NCBI GenBank assembly: GCA_950022495.1
Contig: CATLLJ010000013.1
Span: 1 to 64,000, forward strand
Direction of reading: 5' to 3'
From: an uncultured bacterium
GTDB taxonomy: Bacteria > Cyanobacteriota > Vampirovibrionia > Gastranaerophilales > Gastranaerophilaceae
Length of the DNA: 64,000 nt
Below, piece after piece: positions 21,967-29,435 of this stretch. Numbering within the stretch: the first letter of the stretch is position 1; each line of letters opens with the position of its first letter. A program made the position numbers and the translations under genes. The notes below the pieces were generated by a model that made no database searches, had not been told where the DNA came from, and worked only from the letters and a program-made list of their open reading frames with translations.

Positions 21967-23058
21967 ATGTTAAAATTTAATATAATGAGATGGTTATATA
22001 AAAATGCTCCGATGAATTTTTACTCCAATTCAGACGATGCTACAACAATAAAATCAATTAATAACACTTTTCTGGGTTATAAGTTTAATCACAAATTTTC
22101 TCAGGAGGAAATTGATTTTGTCTGGGAAAAAATTAAAAAATATAAAAGACTTTCAACTATAATGATTTTTGTATCTTTTATAGTTTTATTATACGGCGTT
22201 ATTTTTCCTAATTATTATTTTTTAACTGATTTAGTTTGGTACTATACAGTAATTCCGTTTTTATTAGTTATATTTTTAATTTATCAAGGTATGACTTTTC
22301 TCAGTACTAAATTGTTTGAAAAAAGTATAATAAATAAATTCGGCGAATATGAAAAAGTCGTTTTTATTCCTTCAAAAGATATTGATAAGAGTTATTACCG
22401 CTTATTTAAGATTGAATTGGCAAAAGCTTTGTCATTGATTGTGCTTATTATAATGTGTTTCCAAGTCGGTTCGCCATTTAAGATTGCACAAAATTGGATA
22501 CAGCATAAAAAATACAATGATGTAGTAAAGCTTACAACAATTGGTTCTAAACTGTTCCCGATAGCTCCGGAATGGTATTCATTAAGAGGGTATTCAAAGT
22601 TTAAATTAAAAGATTATGAAGGTTCTATAAAAGATTATGACAAAGCATATAGATTAGGACCAAATGAATATAATGTTATGAATTTTGATAACAAAATTTT
22701 TGTTAAATATTTTATAAAAGATTATGACGGTGCTTTGGCTGATTTTGATTATGAAATTGAACATGCATCGGATGATTATGAAAAAGACTCATTCTTATGG
22801 GATAAAGCTCAATTTTTGTATAATATTCAAAAATATGAAGAGGCTCTAAAAATTTATGACGAACTTCTAATAAAATCAGAAGAGGATAGAATATTTTTGC
22901 TTCAAAACAGATTATATTTTGAACGGGCACAAGTTTATAAGCACCTTGGTGAAGAAGAATTAGCTGAAAACGATATTTTAAATGCTGATAGTTTAAATAT
23001 TGAAGAGGCTTTTAAAAATCCTATTCCTCAACCAATTTTACTGTTGGATGAAATTTAA
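21967..23058 (+). CDS. Membrane-anchored TPR protein
   Basis: The 363-residue protein has two hydrophobic segments near residues 58-78 and 84-108, and a third possible one near 155-170. TPR-like helix pairs follow (for example the LKDYEGSIKDYDKAYRLGPNEY region and YEEALKIYDELL). The N-terminal part is probably in the inner membrane, with the TPR part serving as a docking surface. AGAGGG precedes the ATG. It converges on the AsmA-like gene, with only a few bases between the stops and no clear terminator. The function is unknown. Confidence 0.7.
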   Translation: MLKFNIMRWLYKNAPMNFYSNSDDATTIKSINNTFLGYKFNHKFSQEEIDFVWEKIKKYKRLSTIMIFVSFIVLLYGVIFPNYYFLTDLVWYYTVIPFLLVIFLIYQGMTFLSTKLFEKSIINKFGEYEKVVFIPSKDIDKSYYRLFKIELAKALSLIVLIIMCFQVGSPFKIAQNWIQHKKYNDVVKLTTIGSKLFPIAPEWYSLRGYSKFKLKDYEGSIKDYDKAYRLGPNEYNVMNFDNKIFVKYFIKDYDGALADFDYEIEHASDDYEKDSFLWDKAQFLYNIQKYEEALKIYDELLIKSEEDRIFLLQNRLYFERAQVYKHLGEEELAENDILNADSLNIEEAFKNPIPQPILLLDEI

Positions 23059-23062
23059 AATA

Positions 23063-24844
23063 TTATCTTAAATCTTTCATTTCTATTTTTAAATTTTCTT
23101 TAGAACGCAAATCTCCGTCAACTATAACCCGGAATAATGATTCAATTTCACCTTTGCCGATTTTTATTGGCGGTATTTGTTTTATTGTTTCAATATTGGC
23201 ATTTTTAGAACGTTCAACTCTGAAAAATATTTTATATAAAAATGACAGTGGAATTTTGAAAATTTTAATTTTTCTTTCTGCTGTTTTGTTGTGTCTTCCC
23301 CAGATACACAGACATGTATTTCCTGTATCGATATTGTAATCTCCATTAATAAATAGGGATAGATAATCACTTTGTGAATATATTTTTGCATCTTTTACAC
23401 AATCATTGTGCAGCGTAAATGAACCGGTAATATCAGATTCAAGTGCTGCGTGGTTTGAAAAATCAATGTTAGTAATTTTAGATAGTGTTAATTTTACGGA
23501 GTTCAAAAATTTAAATTTTGAATCTTTTTTTAATATAAATTCTTTAGAACCAAGCTTAGGCAGATAACCATCTTTGATGGCAAATGTTGCATAAGCCAAA
23601 ATGTCATTTAATTTGTTTTTAGAAATTAAATGCAAAGTAGCGTATGCTGAACCTTTAACCTGATCCGGCAGGTTAAATATATTGGTAACAACTTCGTTTG
23701 AATCAATATCTGATGCATAAAAATTTATATCAGATGCATGTGATTTAACGTTGTACTTTCCTTTTGCAGATAAAATCCCTCCGGCATAATCTGTTTGCGG
23801 AATAATAAAGTTGACAATGTTGTTATCCATATTTCCTAAAATTCCAACGTTATATAATTGAAATTTTCTGTTATATATTTCGTCAACCAGAATTTTTCCG
23901 CTTTCTACTTTTATCTCAGGTAAACTATGTGTTTGTGTGGTTTCTTTTTTCTTATGTTTGTAGTCATTTTGCAGTGTTTGTATATTTCCTCTTTGAACAA
24001 TAAATTTTTTGAGATGAATATCAATATTTTTGATAAATATTTCATCTTTAAAATTATTTTTTGCAGTTAATGAAAGGTTGATTGGCGAATTAAAAAATGT
24101 GCCGTTGGAATTAAGATTCAGCTCATTATTTTTTACAAGAATATTTGCTTTGTCTAAAAATAGAAAATCTTTATGATGAACATTATATAAAGTTATAAAC
24201 CCTGATAATGTTTGCGTTGTGAATATATATTTTAAGTCGGAAGAAAAAGTCCCGCCGCTCAAATAGTTTTTCAAATATGGCTGAATAATTTTAAATGGCA
24301 CTTGACCGTTAGTTTTAAGAGTTAAATAAGATGGTTTAAAATGCCCTTTAACTTTTTCAAATAAACCATTACCGGAAAGAATTACTATTTTTTTTGCATT
24401 ATTAATTGCATATTCATAATGCTGAAGTGTTAATTTACTTCCTTGTTTGAGAGTGTTGACTGTAATAATTCTATTTTTATCTGTGTTATCAAGGTTGCCG
24501 AATTTTGATAATATATTACTGTCCTTATTGACTTTTAATATATAATCAACGACGACATTTCCTTCGTGGTTGTTGTATTTTACAAGAGTGTCTGCTTCCC
24601 CTATTATTTGCACAATAGGGAAATACTTTGATGAAAATCTGTTTGTAAGTATGGAATGTACACTGCCCTTTATTCTTAAATCTTTAGTTGCAATCCCTGT
24701 TAAATAGAAGTCTGTGTAAACAGGTTCGGAACCAAAAAATCCGTTAGTTTTTGCAGTAATATTTTTATCTGCGAATTTAAAATCTGTGAAGGGCAGATTT
24801 ATAGGGATTTTGTAATCAAAAAATAATGCAGTTGCTTGTTTCAA
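23063..24844 (-). CDS. AsmA/TamB-like envelope protein, C-terminal part of a split gene
   Basis: This is the larger part of an AsmA-like protein: long beta-rich sequence with Asn/Lys/Asp turns, of the type that forms a lipid-carrying groove across the periplasm. It has no signal or membrane anchor of its own. The apparent start is a TTG with no ribosome binding site, and the same frame stays open for about 115 more codons upstream to the poly-A tract at 25190-25201 (A12 on the coding strand). Joining it to the 25177-25695 piece with one more A, or two fewer, gives a continuous ~880-residue protein. The pieces are therefore almost certainly one gene. It is followed by a convergent TPR gene. 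Confidence 0.7.
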   Translation of the reverse strand: MKQATALFFDYKIPINLPFTDFKFADKNITAKTNGFFGSEPVYTDFYLTGIATKDLRIKGSVHSILTNRFSSKYFPIVQIIGEADTLVKYNNHEGNVVVDYILKVNKDSNILSKFGNLDNTDKNRIITVNTLKQGSKLTLQHYEYAINNAKKIVILSGNGLFEKVKGHFKPSYLTLKTNGQVPFKIIQPYLKNYLSGGTFSSDLKYIFTTQTLSGFITLYNVHHKDFLFLDKANILVKNNELNLNSNGTFFNSPINLSLTAKNNFKDEIFIKNIDIHLKKFIVQRGNIQTLQNDYKHKKKETTQTHSLPEIKVESGKILVDEIYNRKFQLYNVGILGNMDNNIVNFIIPQTDYAGGILSAKGKYNVKSHASDINFYASDIDSNEVVTNIFNLPDQVKGSAYATLHLISKNKLNDILAYATFAIKDGYLPKLGSKEFILKKDSKFKFLNSVKLTLSKITNIDFSNHAALESDITGSFTLHNDCVKDAKIYSQSDYLSLFINGDYNIDTGNTCLCIWGRHNKTAERKIKIFKIPLSFLYKIFFRVERSKNANIETIKQIPPIKIGKGEIESLFRVIVDGDLRSKENLKIEMKDLR

Positions 24845-25176
24845 GTAACAATTACCATTATATTTGCCGGAAGCAATATTTAAATTTACATCAATTTTAC
24901 CTGTCAGATTATGAAAATTTTCAATAAAGTTTTTTTTATTTGGATGTTTTAATTTATAAAAATATAAAAATGTTTCCTTTATTTCTCCTGCCGGTAAATT
25001 TTTTCCTTTTATATTTAAGTTGTCTAAATCTCCGTCTATATTTAGTTTTGAATTCTCAAGTTCTACAGACAGATTACTAAAGCCAAGTTTTTTATCAAAA
25101 ATTATGCTTCCGTTTCTGCCAACTAAAACAGGTGTTTTTGTATAAGGGGTTTTAATTTTGCCTGAAAAAGTTGTGA

Positions 25177-25695
25177 TTATTTTTTTATCTTTTTTTTTTT
25201 TGAAGTGATATTTTTAAAAATAGCATTTGAATCTACATTATCAAAACTTATATAAACCTGATTTATATTAACCATCGGGTACGATGAAAACGTAAAATCA
25301 AATTTGGAAGAGTTATTTTTATCAGATTTTAATTTCTTTTGAATTCTGCCAAGATCAATAAATACTTCATCAATATCAATTTTTTTAGGCTTGATAGACA
25401 ATTGGTGTGAAATATATGTTCCGTCGTTTATTTCAAATATATGATTATTGTCTTCTTTCGCAAATATTTGTTTTACTTTAAAATCGAATGATAAATCCGG
25501 ATGGGATGAGAATTTTAAACCTTCAATAGAAACGGGCATTCCTATTTTAGACGAAAGTATATTTTCCAATTTAGCAGTCATAAATCCGGAATTCATTATT
25601 GGCGGAAGAATGTATAAATATGACAAAAAGCATACTCCTGCAATAATAATTGGAGTTCCAAATAACCAGAGAATATGCTTTATTTTTAAATTCAT
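25177..25695 (-). CDS. AsmA-like envelope protein, N-terminal part of a split gene
   Basis: The N-terminus has a single transmembrane segment (WLFGTPIIIAGVCFLSYLYI). A domain typical of AsmA/DUF3971 proteins follows: short beta segments with a KIGMPVSIEGL motif and conserved hydrophobic strands. The frame runs into a run of 12 A at 25190-25201 and stops shortly after with KKKKIKK. The continuing AsmA sequence is found in another frame immediately after the run. It lies 20 bp downstream of the second AsmA-like gene on the same strand, so the two are probably cotranscribed. Ribosomal slippage, phase variation or a sequencing error at the homopolymer would all explain the break. Confidence 0.65.
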   Translation of the reverse strand: MNLKIKHILWLFGTPIIIAGVCFLSYLYILPPIMNSGFMTAKLENILSSKIGMPVSIEGLKFSSHPDLSFDFKVKQIFAKEDNNHIFEINDGTYISHQLSIKPKKIDIDEVFIDLGRIQKKLKSDKNNSSKFDFTFSSYPMVNINQVYISFDNVDSNAIFKNITSKKKKIKK

Positions 25696-25715: not shown

Positions 25716-28700
25716 TTATTTTTTGAATTTTGATTTGACTTTTTTGAATATCGTTTTATTCTGTTCTGGAGGTGCGGATTGTTCTTGTCGTAACTTAATC
25801 AGTTCATCCACAGATAAACCTTCTTCGCCTTCTGTCGGAATAGGTAAAGTATCGACAAAATCTTTTGCACTTTGAATTTCAGAATCAAGAGCAAGCCATT
25901 TAAATGATTTTATCATTTTTAAAGGTTTTCTTGTATCACCCCGTAATACAATTTGGAACTTGGTTGCATTTTCATCAGAGCGGTCTTTAGCTAATTCCGG
26001 AATTGCTTTCATTTCTTCTTCCGATACAGCTTGACAGAATATTGCAAATGTTTTTGCAGCAACAATATTTAGCCCCGGAGTATTTTTTATTAAGTTTATA
26101 GGGTTAATATTGGCTAATGGTCCAAGCTTATCAGAAAATGCTGATGCTAATTTGCCTCTTAGTTTCATATCTGCACTGTTATCTAATAAATTGAGTTTAC
26201 CTGCAATAAATATAGACATAACATTTCCCTGCGATTTTATTGGTTCAATATTTGCCCAGCCGTCATTGAATGTTAAATGTCCGTACAGGTTATTAAAGTG
26301 TGCAGTATCTATAGTTACAAGATTTGTGATAATAGAACCGACTGTAGATGAGAAAAATGCATTTTCTCTAATGTTTTCAGCCATAAGGAAGTTTTCAAAT
26401 TTCCCAAATGGTCCAAGGGTTCCGTCTTTTATATTAAAGTCAACAAAACCTTTAAGTGTTTGCATTTGTTCTTCATAGGTTGTTCCCTGTAATGATAAAT
26501 CTGCAATGAAATTCATATCTCCTGATAAAGTATCTTTCATCTGCATTGCATCTGTCAGAACTTTTTCGATGTCAAAATCATGACCTTTTAATTTCATTTT
26601 TAGTTCTGTTGTAATAAGATTCATTGCCGCGTTACCGGTAACAATTCCGCCTAGCGGACGGGTTTTAATATTATTAACATGCAAAATATTATTTTTTAAA
26701 AATATTCTGCCAGTTGTGTTATTTGCAACAATATCCCCTGTTTTAATTTTATCAAATTTAAACGAGCCGTTTTTGATTTCCAACGGAATATTTGCATTGT
26801 TCTGAGATGTGTTAGTGCTTGCAGATGGAGTTTTCGGCAGTGCTGACATCAATGCATTTGAAACTTCCATCAGCTTATCAATGTTTATCAATCGGGAATT
26901 GATTTTTACATCTGAAAGTATCATTTTAGAAATTAATTCAAGATTAGACTCTGCTGAAATTTTGAAATCTGAACCATTTGCATTGATATCATTTATACCT
27001 ATATTGATATTTTTTGTTGCCATGTTAACAAATGCGTGTCTAACAGATGTGTGAATTTCCGGTATTTCAAGGTCTCTTACATCTATATGTCCATTTATTT
27101 TTGGATTTGAAATCTTACCAAATGCAAAAATATTGCCGCTGGTTGAGAATTTTGAATTTTTAAATATGCATATTGAGCCGTTCAATTTTTTAGAAATTGA
27201 AATTTTCAATAAATTAATAAACGGTTCCGTTGTAATTGACGAAATAATTCCTCTAATTTCAACAATCGGATTGGCTCCTACCAAATTTTTATAAAACTTG
27301 TTGCTAAATCCGGAAGTTGGGGATGTTGTGTATATTCCGGATTTATTAATTTTTAAGGTGTCACCGTTGTTTACCATAATTAACTGGAATAATGTATGTT
27401 TTCCAACAAGTTCGTTAATGGTGATAGGTGTAATATAATTTTTATTGTCAGTTTTTGCCTGAACAATTAGTTTTTGTTTCTTGTTTCTATCTTCAAATTT
27501 TGCTTTTACAGGTATTGAACCTTTTAAATCAAAATATGGTATTGCCTCTTTACCCATAAATATTGCAATATCTGACGCCGCAAGTTTTCCGTCTGCAAAT
27601 AATTGGGTTTCAGGGTTGGTTATGTAATTTTTTACATTTGCATTAACTTTTACAATTGAATTTTTATTTATTTTAATTGCAGATTTGTTTGTTGAGATTG
27701 TCTTGTTATCAATATTTGCTTCAAACAGTTCGTCTGAGATAACTGAATTAGTTTTTGGCAGTGTAAAATTAAATCCTTTATTAACAAGTTTTCCTCTTAT
27801 TTTACCTGCATAATTAGCTATTCCAAAATGAGCGTTCCGGTTTGATAGTACAAAAGTTCCGGCTTTATCTTTAAAGATAAAGTTGTTTAAGTCAGTTTTT
27901 AAAATTGCAGCTATATCTTTTATTTCACCTGTAACTCTTGAGTCAATACTTAGGCTTCCTGAATCTAAATCAAAATTTTGTTTGATGTTTCTAGGTGCAA
28001 ATGCTTTGTATAATCCGGTTAGAGGGATTTTGTCTCCAACAATATTGAAGTTTGCAATAGAATTTGAATAGATTTTTCCTGAGATATCTAATGGATGTTT
28101 ATTTATAAGAATATGTGTATTTACGACTTTAAATATATTATTGTCAAAGAACAAGTTTGCGTGAATATCATTGAACAACAGCCCAATGTTTTTATCTGCA
28201 ATATTTCCTTCTCTAATAATAATTTTTCCTGATGAAATAATATCATTAAAATCTGTTTTTAAATGGGCATTAGATAACAGATAACCGGATGCCGTAATAT
28301 TTTCTAAATCATTTTGAATATGTATTGTATCAAGGTAAGCTTTTGTAATATTTAAAATATTTGCAAAGTGCACTTTTGGTGATTTGAGAAATATATCTAT
28401 ATATGGGTTTTTGCCATAATCAATATTGCCGGCTAAATTAATATATTCTTTGTCTGTAATGTAAATATTAGTATTGATTTCTGTATAATAATCTTTGGCT
28501 TTTAATTTAAAATAAGATTCAGGAAGTTGTAAGCCTGCAAGATTCATTGTTGTGTTTTCAATGCTTGCATGACCGTTCATTTTGATTTTTTTATCATTTT
28601 TATCCTGTCTTATTTTTAATTTGGTGTCGATATTTGATTTTAAATCATATTTTCTATATTCAGTAACCGGATTTATAAATGGTAATGAAAATACTGCTTC

Positions 28701-29435
28701 ATTATCTTCCTGTTCAGTTTCTTGCGGGGAAATCTCAGGTATAAAAGTATCAATATCTATATTTGCCGTAATGTTTGTTTTATTGTCGCTCAATAGAGTT
28801 GCTTCAGTTATTAATTTTGCAGTTTTTCCGTTAAAATATCCGAGTTTTAGGGAGTCCCCTTTTAAGGTTAAATTGTGTTCTGCGGAAGTATCGTTTATTA
28901 CAGCTTTATAGTTATTAAGTTTAAAGTTCGGGATATAAAGTTTTATTTTAGTCGGGTCAATTGGTAATTCATTTTGATTTTCTTGAATTTGTGTGCTGTT
29001 TTCAAGCAGTTCTTTTCTGTGTTTGTTTACAAGGTCTTCGTATACTCTTGCAACTTTGAATTGTTGACCGTTTTCAATTTCAATATTTAATTTTGGAGAA
29101 TTAATTTCAGCACAGGTTACTTTGACACTCAGCCACAGTAAACTTGGTAAAAATACTTTTCCTTTTGCGGATTTTGCAGCAAAAAGAGTACTGTTATCAG
29201 GTAATTTTACAGAAATATTTTTTGCTTTTACACCGGCTTCCAGCCATGGAGATGTTATTACTTCAACTTTATCAAAATCTAGAGTTAAATCTGTATTATC
29301 TTTGACTATCTTTTGTAATTGCGGTTTGTAAACATTTAAATTAATAGTTTTCGGGATAATAAATAAAAACGAAATGTATAATAATAGCATAATTCCAAGT
29401 AATATATAGCCTGAAATCTTTAAAATATGTTTCAT
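25716..29435 (-). CDS. Large AsmA-family protein
   Basis: The 1239-residue protein starts with a membrane anchor (ISGYILLGIMLLLYISFLFI). A beta-rich domain with the VITSPWLEAGVKAKNISVKLPD segment follows, typical of AsmA. The remainder is repetitive beta sequence ending in an AsmA C-terminal-like domain (FADLSLQGTTYEEQMQTLKG, then the LDNSADMKLRGKLAS segment). AsmA/YhdP/TamB-type proteins span the periplasm and move phospholipids or help assemble outer-membrane proteins. The C-terminus is a charged cytosolic-looking tail rich in Lys, which is odd for a periplasmic protein. It is divergent from the TolC-fusion gene, with 190 bp between them, and its downstream partner is the split AsmA gene. 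Confidence 0.82.
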   Translation of the reverse strand: MKHILKISGYILLGIMLLLYISFLFIIPKTINLNVYKPQLQKIVKDNTDLTLDFDKVEVITSPWLEAGVKAKNISVKLPDNSTLFAAKSAKGKVFLPSLLWLSVKVTCAEINSPKLNIEIENGQQFKVARVYEDLVNKHRKELLENSTQIQENQNELPIDPTKIKLYIPNFKLNNYKAVINDTSAEHNLTLKGDSLKLGYFNGKTAKLITEATLLSDNKTNITANIDIDTFIPEISPQETEQEDNEAVFSLPFINPVTEYRKYDLKSNIDTKLKIRQDKNDKKIKMNGHASIENTTMNLAGLQLPESYFKLKAKDYYTEINTNIYITDKEYINLAGNIDYGKNPYIDIFLKSPKVHFANILNITKAYLDTIHIQNDLENITASGYLLSNAHLKTDFNDIISSGKIIIREGNIADKNIGLLFNDIHANLFFDNNIFKVVNTHILINKHPLDISGKIYSNSIANFNIVGDKIPLTGLYKAFAPRNIKQNFDLDSGSLSIDSRVTGEIKDIAAILKTDLNNFIFKDKAGTFVLSNRNAHFGIANYAGKIRGKLVNKGFNFTLPKTNSVISDELFEANIDNKTISTNKSAIKINKNSIVKVNANVKNYITNPETQLFADGKLAASDIAIFMGKEAIPYFDLKGSIPVKAKFEDRNKKQKLIVQAKTDNKNYITPITINELVGKHTLFQLIMVNNGDTLKINKSGIYTTSPTSGFSNKFYKNLVGANPIVEIRGIISSITTEPFINLLKISISKKLNGSICIFKNSKFSTSGNIFAFGKISNPKINGHIDVRDLEIPEIHTSVRHAFVNMATKNINIGINDINANGSDFKISAESNLELISKMILSDVKINSRLINIDKLMEVSNALMSALPKTPSASTNTSQNNANIPLEIKNGSFKFDKIKTGDIVANNTTGRIFLKNNILHVNNIKTRPLGGIVTGNAAMNLITTELKMKLKGHDFDIEKVLTDAMQMKDTLSGDMNFIADLSLQGTTYEEQMQTLKGFVDFNIKDGTLGPFGKFENFLMAENIRENAFFSSTVGSIITNLVTIDTAHFNNLYGHLTFNDGWANIEPIKSQGNVMSIFIAGKLNLLDNSADMKLRGKLASAFSDKLGPLANINPINLIKNTPGLNIVAAKTFAIFCQAVSEEEMKAIPELAKDRSDENATKFQIVLRGDTRKPLKMIKSFKWLALDSEIQSAKDFVDTLPIPTEGEEGLSVDELIKLRQEQSAPPEQNKTIFKKVKSKFKK

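Follow-up and report, generated by a model that had tools for sequence, protein, structure and literature searches.

Transcriptional slippage as a candidate bypass of an A12 frame break in an AsmA-like envelope gene of a Gastranaerophilales genome

In the stretch of 64,000 nucleotides analysed here (the window; contig CATLLJ010000013.1 of assembly GCA_950022495.1, from an uncultured gut bacterium of the Gastranaerophilales), a run of twelve A's on the coding strand lies at the junction of two reading frames that look like parts of one gene. This locus raises the question of whether the gene is dead, switched between states, misread in the assembly, or still expressed across the break.

Two reading frames at a poly-A junction

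The preliminary description of this DNA held that the A12 separates two frames of a single gene. This is confirmed at the level of the frames: one of 172 codons runs through the tract (T12 on the plus strand) into a stop, with the junction codons TCA AAA AAA AAA AAG ATA AAA AAA TAA on the coding strand, and an open frame of 708 codons follows (Table 1). The accompanying arithmetic, by which one more A or two fewer would rejoin the frames, is correct, and the statement that the second frame stays open for about 115 codons before a start-like codon is borne out, as codons 1-115 contain none and the first is a TTG at 24844, codon 116. We considered this TTG as the sole candidate for an independent start of the C-terminal part and rejected it, as it is without a clear ribosome site. 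When joined, the frames give a protein of ~876-877 residues. With the break near residue 165, a stub would retain no more than the anchor and the first strands; the hydropathy of the N-terminal part peaks near residues 16-34.

Table 1. Positions of the two frames, the junction elements and the neighbouring genes in the window
Feature	Position	Strand	Remark
Upstream gene, 1239 aa, AsmA/YhdP-like	25716..29435	-	20 bases before the split gene
N-terminal frame, 172 aa, membrane-anchor helix and start of beta-groove	25177..25695	-	stop TAA at 25179-25177
A12 homopolymer, lysine-rich slot	25190..25201	-	family pattern S-K-K-x-K at the slot in relatives
Heptamer A_AAA_AAG, in the phase of dnaX-type -1 sites, leading into the C-terminal frame	25189..25195	-	from codon phase
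Second run, A7, directly before the stop	25180..25186	-	from sequence
C-terminal frame, 708 codons and stop	23063..25189 (codons 25189 to 23066)	-	conserved to the extent seen in intact orthologues
Tail-to-tail neighbour, 363 aa, TPR-like by eye	21967..23058	+	position kept in several relatives

Affinities, orthologues and state of the split gene

The 1239-residue upstream gene, a probable operon partner, matches the Pfam AsmA model (E 9.2e-18), and a profile built from 15 orthologues of the split gene in turn matches this neighbour (probability 91.8, E 7.6e-7). Several relatives (e.g. L045, L050, L052, L139 and L141) share this gene order, in which a ~1240-residue AsmA/YhdP-like gene lies directly upstream of the split gene and a tail-to-tail gene follows it; in others (e.g. 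L046 and L051) the order differs. The predicted structure of one orthologue (L045; mean pLDDT 83.5, pTM 0.62) has a helix at residues 2-34 followed almost entirely by beta structure, i.e. a single N-terminal membrane helix, seen also in the hydropathy of the split gene's own N-terminal part, and an elongated beta-groove. Structure comparison gave matches to TamB (9xdd_B; Z 7.9, 4.6 A over 176) and to a VPS13 fragment (6cbc_B; Z 7.7, 6.0 A over 157), both tied with unrelated beta-barrels, for which the top Z is 9.7. In YhdP, TamB and YdbH, as described in PMC8593681 and PMC8912898, we find the same succession of an N-terminal membrane helix and a long run of beta-strands; unlike them, the split protein passes no Pfam or NCBIfam cut-off. 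Its N-terminal part has a weak match to Pfam YhdP (E 5.6e-4, below the cut-off), no relevant Pfam or NCBIfam match was obtained for the C-terminal part or for six orthologues, and a sequence search of the PDB returned no match. On the strength of the profile link and the predicted fold, the gene probably encodes an AsmA-like, bridge-like lipid-transfer protein; the profile link and the intact orthologues described below support the earlier proposal that the tract divides a single AsmA-like gene. Published Gastranaerophilales/Melainabacteria genomes are described as having genes for a Gram-negative, lipid A-containing envelope (PMC4040986).

A search of the genus recovered matches at E<=1e-50 in 35 of 46 genomes, that of the window included, the nearest orthologues being 43-53% identical; no relatives were found among viral contigs. 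We examined 37 loci, from which five exact duplicates were dropped to leave 32 distinct sequences, and in 31 of these the slot is spanned by one uninterrupted frame of 863-904 codons (stop to stop). Also among the 32 is L136, which is cut by a contig end and whose other contig reads through the slot. A possible second instance of the break, in G046, was discarded, as the gene there is cut by a contig end past the slot and the slot itself reads through. All 25 close orthologues are single-frame (about 870-900 codons) and none has a run of A>=10; at the slot they carry A3 to A8, often within S-K-K-x-K, with A9 the maximum anywhere in an orthologous ORF. For comparison of spacing, three placeholder residues, equivalent to ten A's, were inserted into the joined protein. 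The spacing across the slot is identical in all 25, and is that of ten A's, with two of them having one additional residue upstream of the slot. Since slot runs extend only from A3 to A8 and the spacing is constant, the A12 would thus have arisen in this lineage by expansion of an A-rich lysine slot, to two A's beyond the length shared by the family. Both restorations named in the preliminary description are arithmetically sound, but the orthologues fit the one with ten A's and not that with thirteen.

Of 146 near-invariant columns the downstream half retains 133 (0.91), within the range of 0.88-0.99 for the other 24 close sequences; this count used 25 of the 33 alignment rows, after removal of the broken L136, of L010 (a near copy of L009) and of the distant L051, L015, L016, L017, L018 and L019. 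No further stop or frameshift occurs across the 708 codons of the C-terminal frame. This undamaged state excludes long decay, while being equally expected under a bypass, a very recent frameshift or a false frameshift. A recent inactivating mutation, with a fresh pseudogene in the course of being lost, would account for the broken frame as written; consistent with it are the 11 of 46 genus genomes without a match at E<=1e-50, which mark the family as dispensable, and the upstream AsmA-like gene that is still there. However, 708 codons free of other lesions and with conserved positions kept argue against such a loss, which we consider quite unlikely.

Long A runs in the genome

The genome is a MAG of 1,927,403 bases in 22 contigs, 99.26% complete and 0.15% contaminated. 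Its 1.93 Mb contain ten tracts of A>=10, namely eight A10, one A11 and one A12; the last is the longest A/T homopolymer of the genome and the sole A>=10 tract inside a long gene, two others touching ORFs of 80 codons or fewer. We compared coding-strand runs with the expectation from 100 codon-usage randomisations, for 338 ORFs of at least 150 codons in the window and twenty 20-kb stretches of this genome (L083-L102), together 464 kb of the 1.93 Mb. Runs of nine or more A's number one, the A12 itself, against 40.05 expected; the figures are one against 15.9 for ten or more, and one against 4.29 for twelve or more. Outside the sampled genes of these 464 kb, the two strands together hold five A9, five A10 and one A11, and in the window A10 matches number 3 against 13.2 expected from shuffles. 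Hence base composition alone permits such runs, but real genes here avoid long ones. In the sampled genes long A runs have been purged: with one coding run where 40 would be expected, runs of this length are normally removed, and the split gene is the lone exception. Baranov et al. (PMC1088944) read the depletion of coding A runs as selection against transcriptional slippage, beside which replication slippage could also contribute. The near-absence of coding runs of nine or more A's makes this genome well suited to the question of which of the two drives the purging, and the split gene is the exception on which its cause can be tested. Coding-strand T runs are depleted too in the 464-kb sample (eight or more T's: 3 observed, 26 expected).

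A crude scan of the 464 kb for adjacent frames flagged seven places, among which only the A12 site has a homopolymer longer than 6; two of the six others were examined, and neither is a split gene. Within this sample, the scan and the run counts give no sign of a genome full of homopolymer frameshifts. A separate A10 (L038, G000:C2:185921-185930) lies in an ORF of ~70 codons, helix-turn-helix-like by eye, that appears to terminate abnormally past the run.

These data bear directly on the DNA count of A's, which is taken from a MAG consensus and is the chief doubt attached to any transcriptional bypass. A consensus or assembly error, or the consensus of a mixed population, would mean that the dominant cells are in frame and the gene is ordinary. 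Such an error would fit with 1) every orthologue being in frame, with the spacing of ten A's; 2) the undamaged downstream frame; 3) the standing of the A12 as the longest A/T homopolymer of the genome, where miscounting is likeliest; and 4) odd long A runs in MAG genes of relatives, such as an A17 in G010 that replaces conserved residues, which is reason to treat long A runs in such assemblies with suspicion. Against it, no other gene in the 464 kb is split at a long homopolymer, and completeness and contamination are as given above. As no other coding tract in the sample is as long as the A12, the good frames elsewhere say little about its count. We regard an error or a mixed consensus as rather unlikely.

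The same data bear on the on/off switch raised in the preliminary description. At a phase-variable contingency locus, replication slippage would toggle the envelope protein between cells, under selection by, for instance, phage or bile. The length of the tract, its location early in the gene (first fifth) and the envelope function are all compatible with this; the retention of a lone tract despite strong purging could mean that it is kept for a reason, and switching by poly-A frameshift has precedents in Vibrio cholerae manA (PMC3441752) and Listeria inlA (PMC2831843). However, the tract occurs in none of the orthologues, no sister tract exists in another long gene of the genome, and MutS and MutL are both present and intact, which rules out loss of mismatch repair and leaves the genome with no evident mutator character. 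An evolved switch is accordingly unsupported, and we hold a contingency locus of this kind to be improbable. It is likewise improbable that the A12 is a selected switch that tunes or toggles a bridge-like lipid-transfer protein and so makes the supply of lipid to the outer membrane differ from cell to cell. The Vibrio cholerae manA/wbeL case (PMC3441752) shares a poly-A tract early in an envelope gene and a frame-breaking change of length, but reversibility is demonstrated there for manA, whereas the tract here is not conserved and is known from one consensus. Searches of the literature for Gastranaerophilales with phase variation, and for AsmA with frameshift and homopolymeric tract, found nothing.

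Bypass by slippage and long tracts elsewhere in the genus

The explanation that we favour, at somewhat short of even chances, is that the A12 is real and lineage-specific and that slippage during transcription partly overcomes the frame break. On this account, the A-rich lysine slot of an AsmA/YhdP/TamB-like envelope gene would have expanded to a true A12 in this lineage, with the DNA as written encoding a stub of 172 residues. RNA polymerase would then slip on the tract, mostly adding single A's, and part of the mRNA would read on into the 708-codon frame; the product, of roughly 877 residues, would exceed the family spacing by one lysine. The gene would thereby be a leaky frameshift, reduced but not dead, and the tract length might also change by replication slippage, which in some cells could bring the two frames back into register.

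Several lines of evidence point in this direction, among them the equal spacing across the slot in all 25 intact close orthologues, the undamaged downstream frame and the depletion of coding A runs as read by Baranov et al. The preliminary description called the tract slippery, and runs of this length are indeed known to be so for RNA polymerase. Transcriptional insertions are reported to be mostly of a single base and to rise exponentially with the length of A/T runs (PMC5574713); one added A is exactly what the A12 needs, which supports a bypass. Both tRNA-Lys(ttt) and tRNA-Lys(ctt) are encoded in the genome, the setting in which Thermus is described as using slippage of the polymerase and not of the ribosome (PMC5009743). 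The closest parallel is Citrobacter rodentium tssM1, where an A11 yields mRNAs with 10-15 A's and a functional full-length protein (PMC4256274). The present locus has in common with tssM1 an envelope gene stopped early, a poly-A run at the frame junction just before the stop, and a conserved remainder in another frame; in tssM1 the frame is restored by slippage, as proven by mass spectrometry and genetics, whereas here we infer it from sequence, and there is no sign here of a required ratio of two forms. A frameshift bypassed in this manner would therefore be an event of a known type. The purging of coding A runs could, as a counter-point, stem from replication slippage instead of transcription. 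If the tract is real, annotation pipelines would call the gene broken, or two genes, where the cell probably still makes the protein.

A comparable situation is known in endosymbionts. Tamas 2008 and Wernegreen 2010 reportedly deal with frameshifted poly-A genes of Blochmannia and Buchnera. The account in PMC3017870 shares with ours an AT-rich host-associated bacterium and a poly-A frameshift in an otherwise undecayed gene, but Blochmannia is credited there with more than 100 coding poly-A tracts of at least nine bases, against one in 338 genes here, and mismatch repair is present here.

Slippage of the ribosome is a further route across the junction. Programmed -1 frameshifting, giving two products in a fixed ratio, could act at the heptamer A_AAA_AAG, which lies in the right phase, leads into the downstream frame and is a shift-prone sequence for -1 slippage (PMC5009743). 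However, no downstream structure exceeds that of shuffles (z -0.47, 0.92 and -0.04), no Shine-Dalgarno-like stimulator is apparent by eye upstream, a dedicated tRNA-Lys(ctt) is present, and the site is not conserved in orthologues. The lack of a hairpin after the tract and the presence of both lysine tRNAs argue against programmed ribosomal shifting, which we deem extremely improbable; -1 slippage may nevertheless add to a transcriptional bypass, though hardly as a programmed event.

We also looked at 50 long-A-tract loci in other genomes of the genus, 12 of which were read in three frames, and among these none was shown to be a clean split of the same kind. In-frame long A tracts inside genes occur at L074, L077, L103, L107, L109 and L112. 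One genome of the genus, G010, has many A15-A19 tracts in or at the edge of genes, some of them in frame (L103, L104, L105, L106, L107 and L109); at L106 an A17 stands where the homologue L034 of G000 has other residues. These tracts may be assembly artefacts or mark a mutator lineage. In G002, locus L113 has an A14 and an A12, at 2062 and 5526, each directly before the similar sequence TAAAAGGAG and preceding two small genes 3.5 kb apart, where they could tune the spacing of the translation start.
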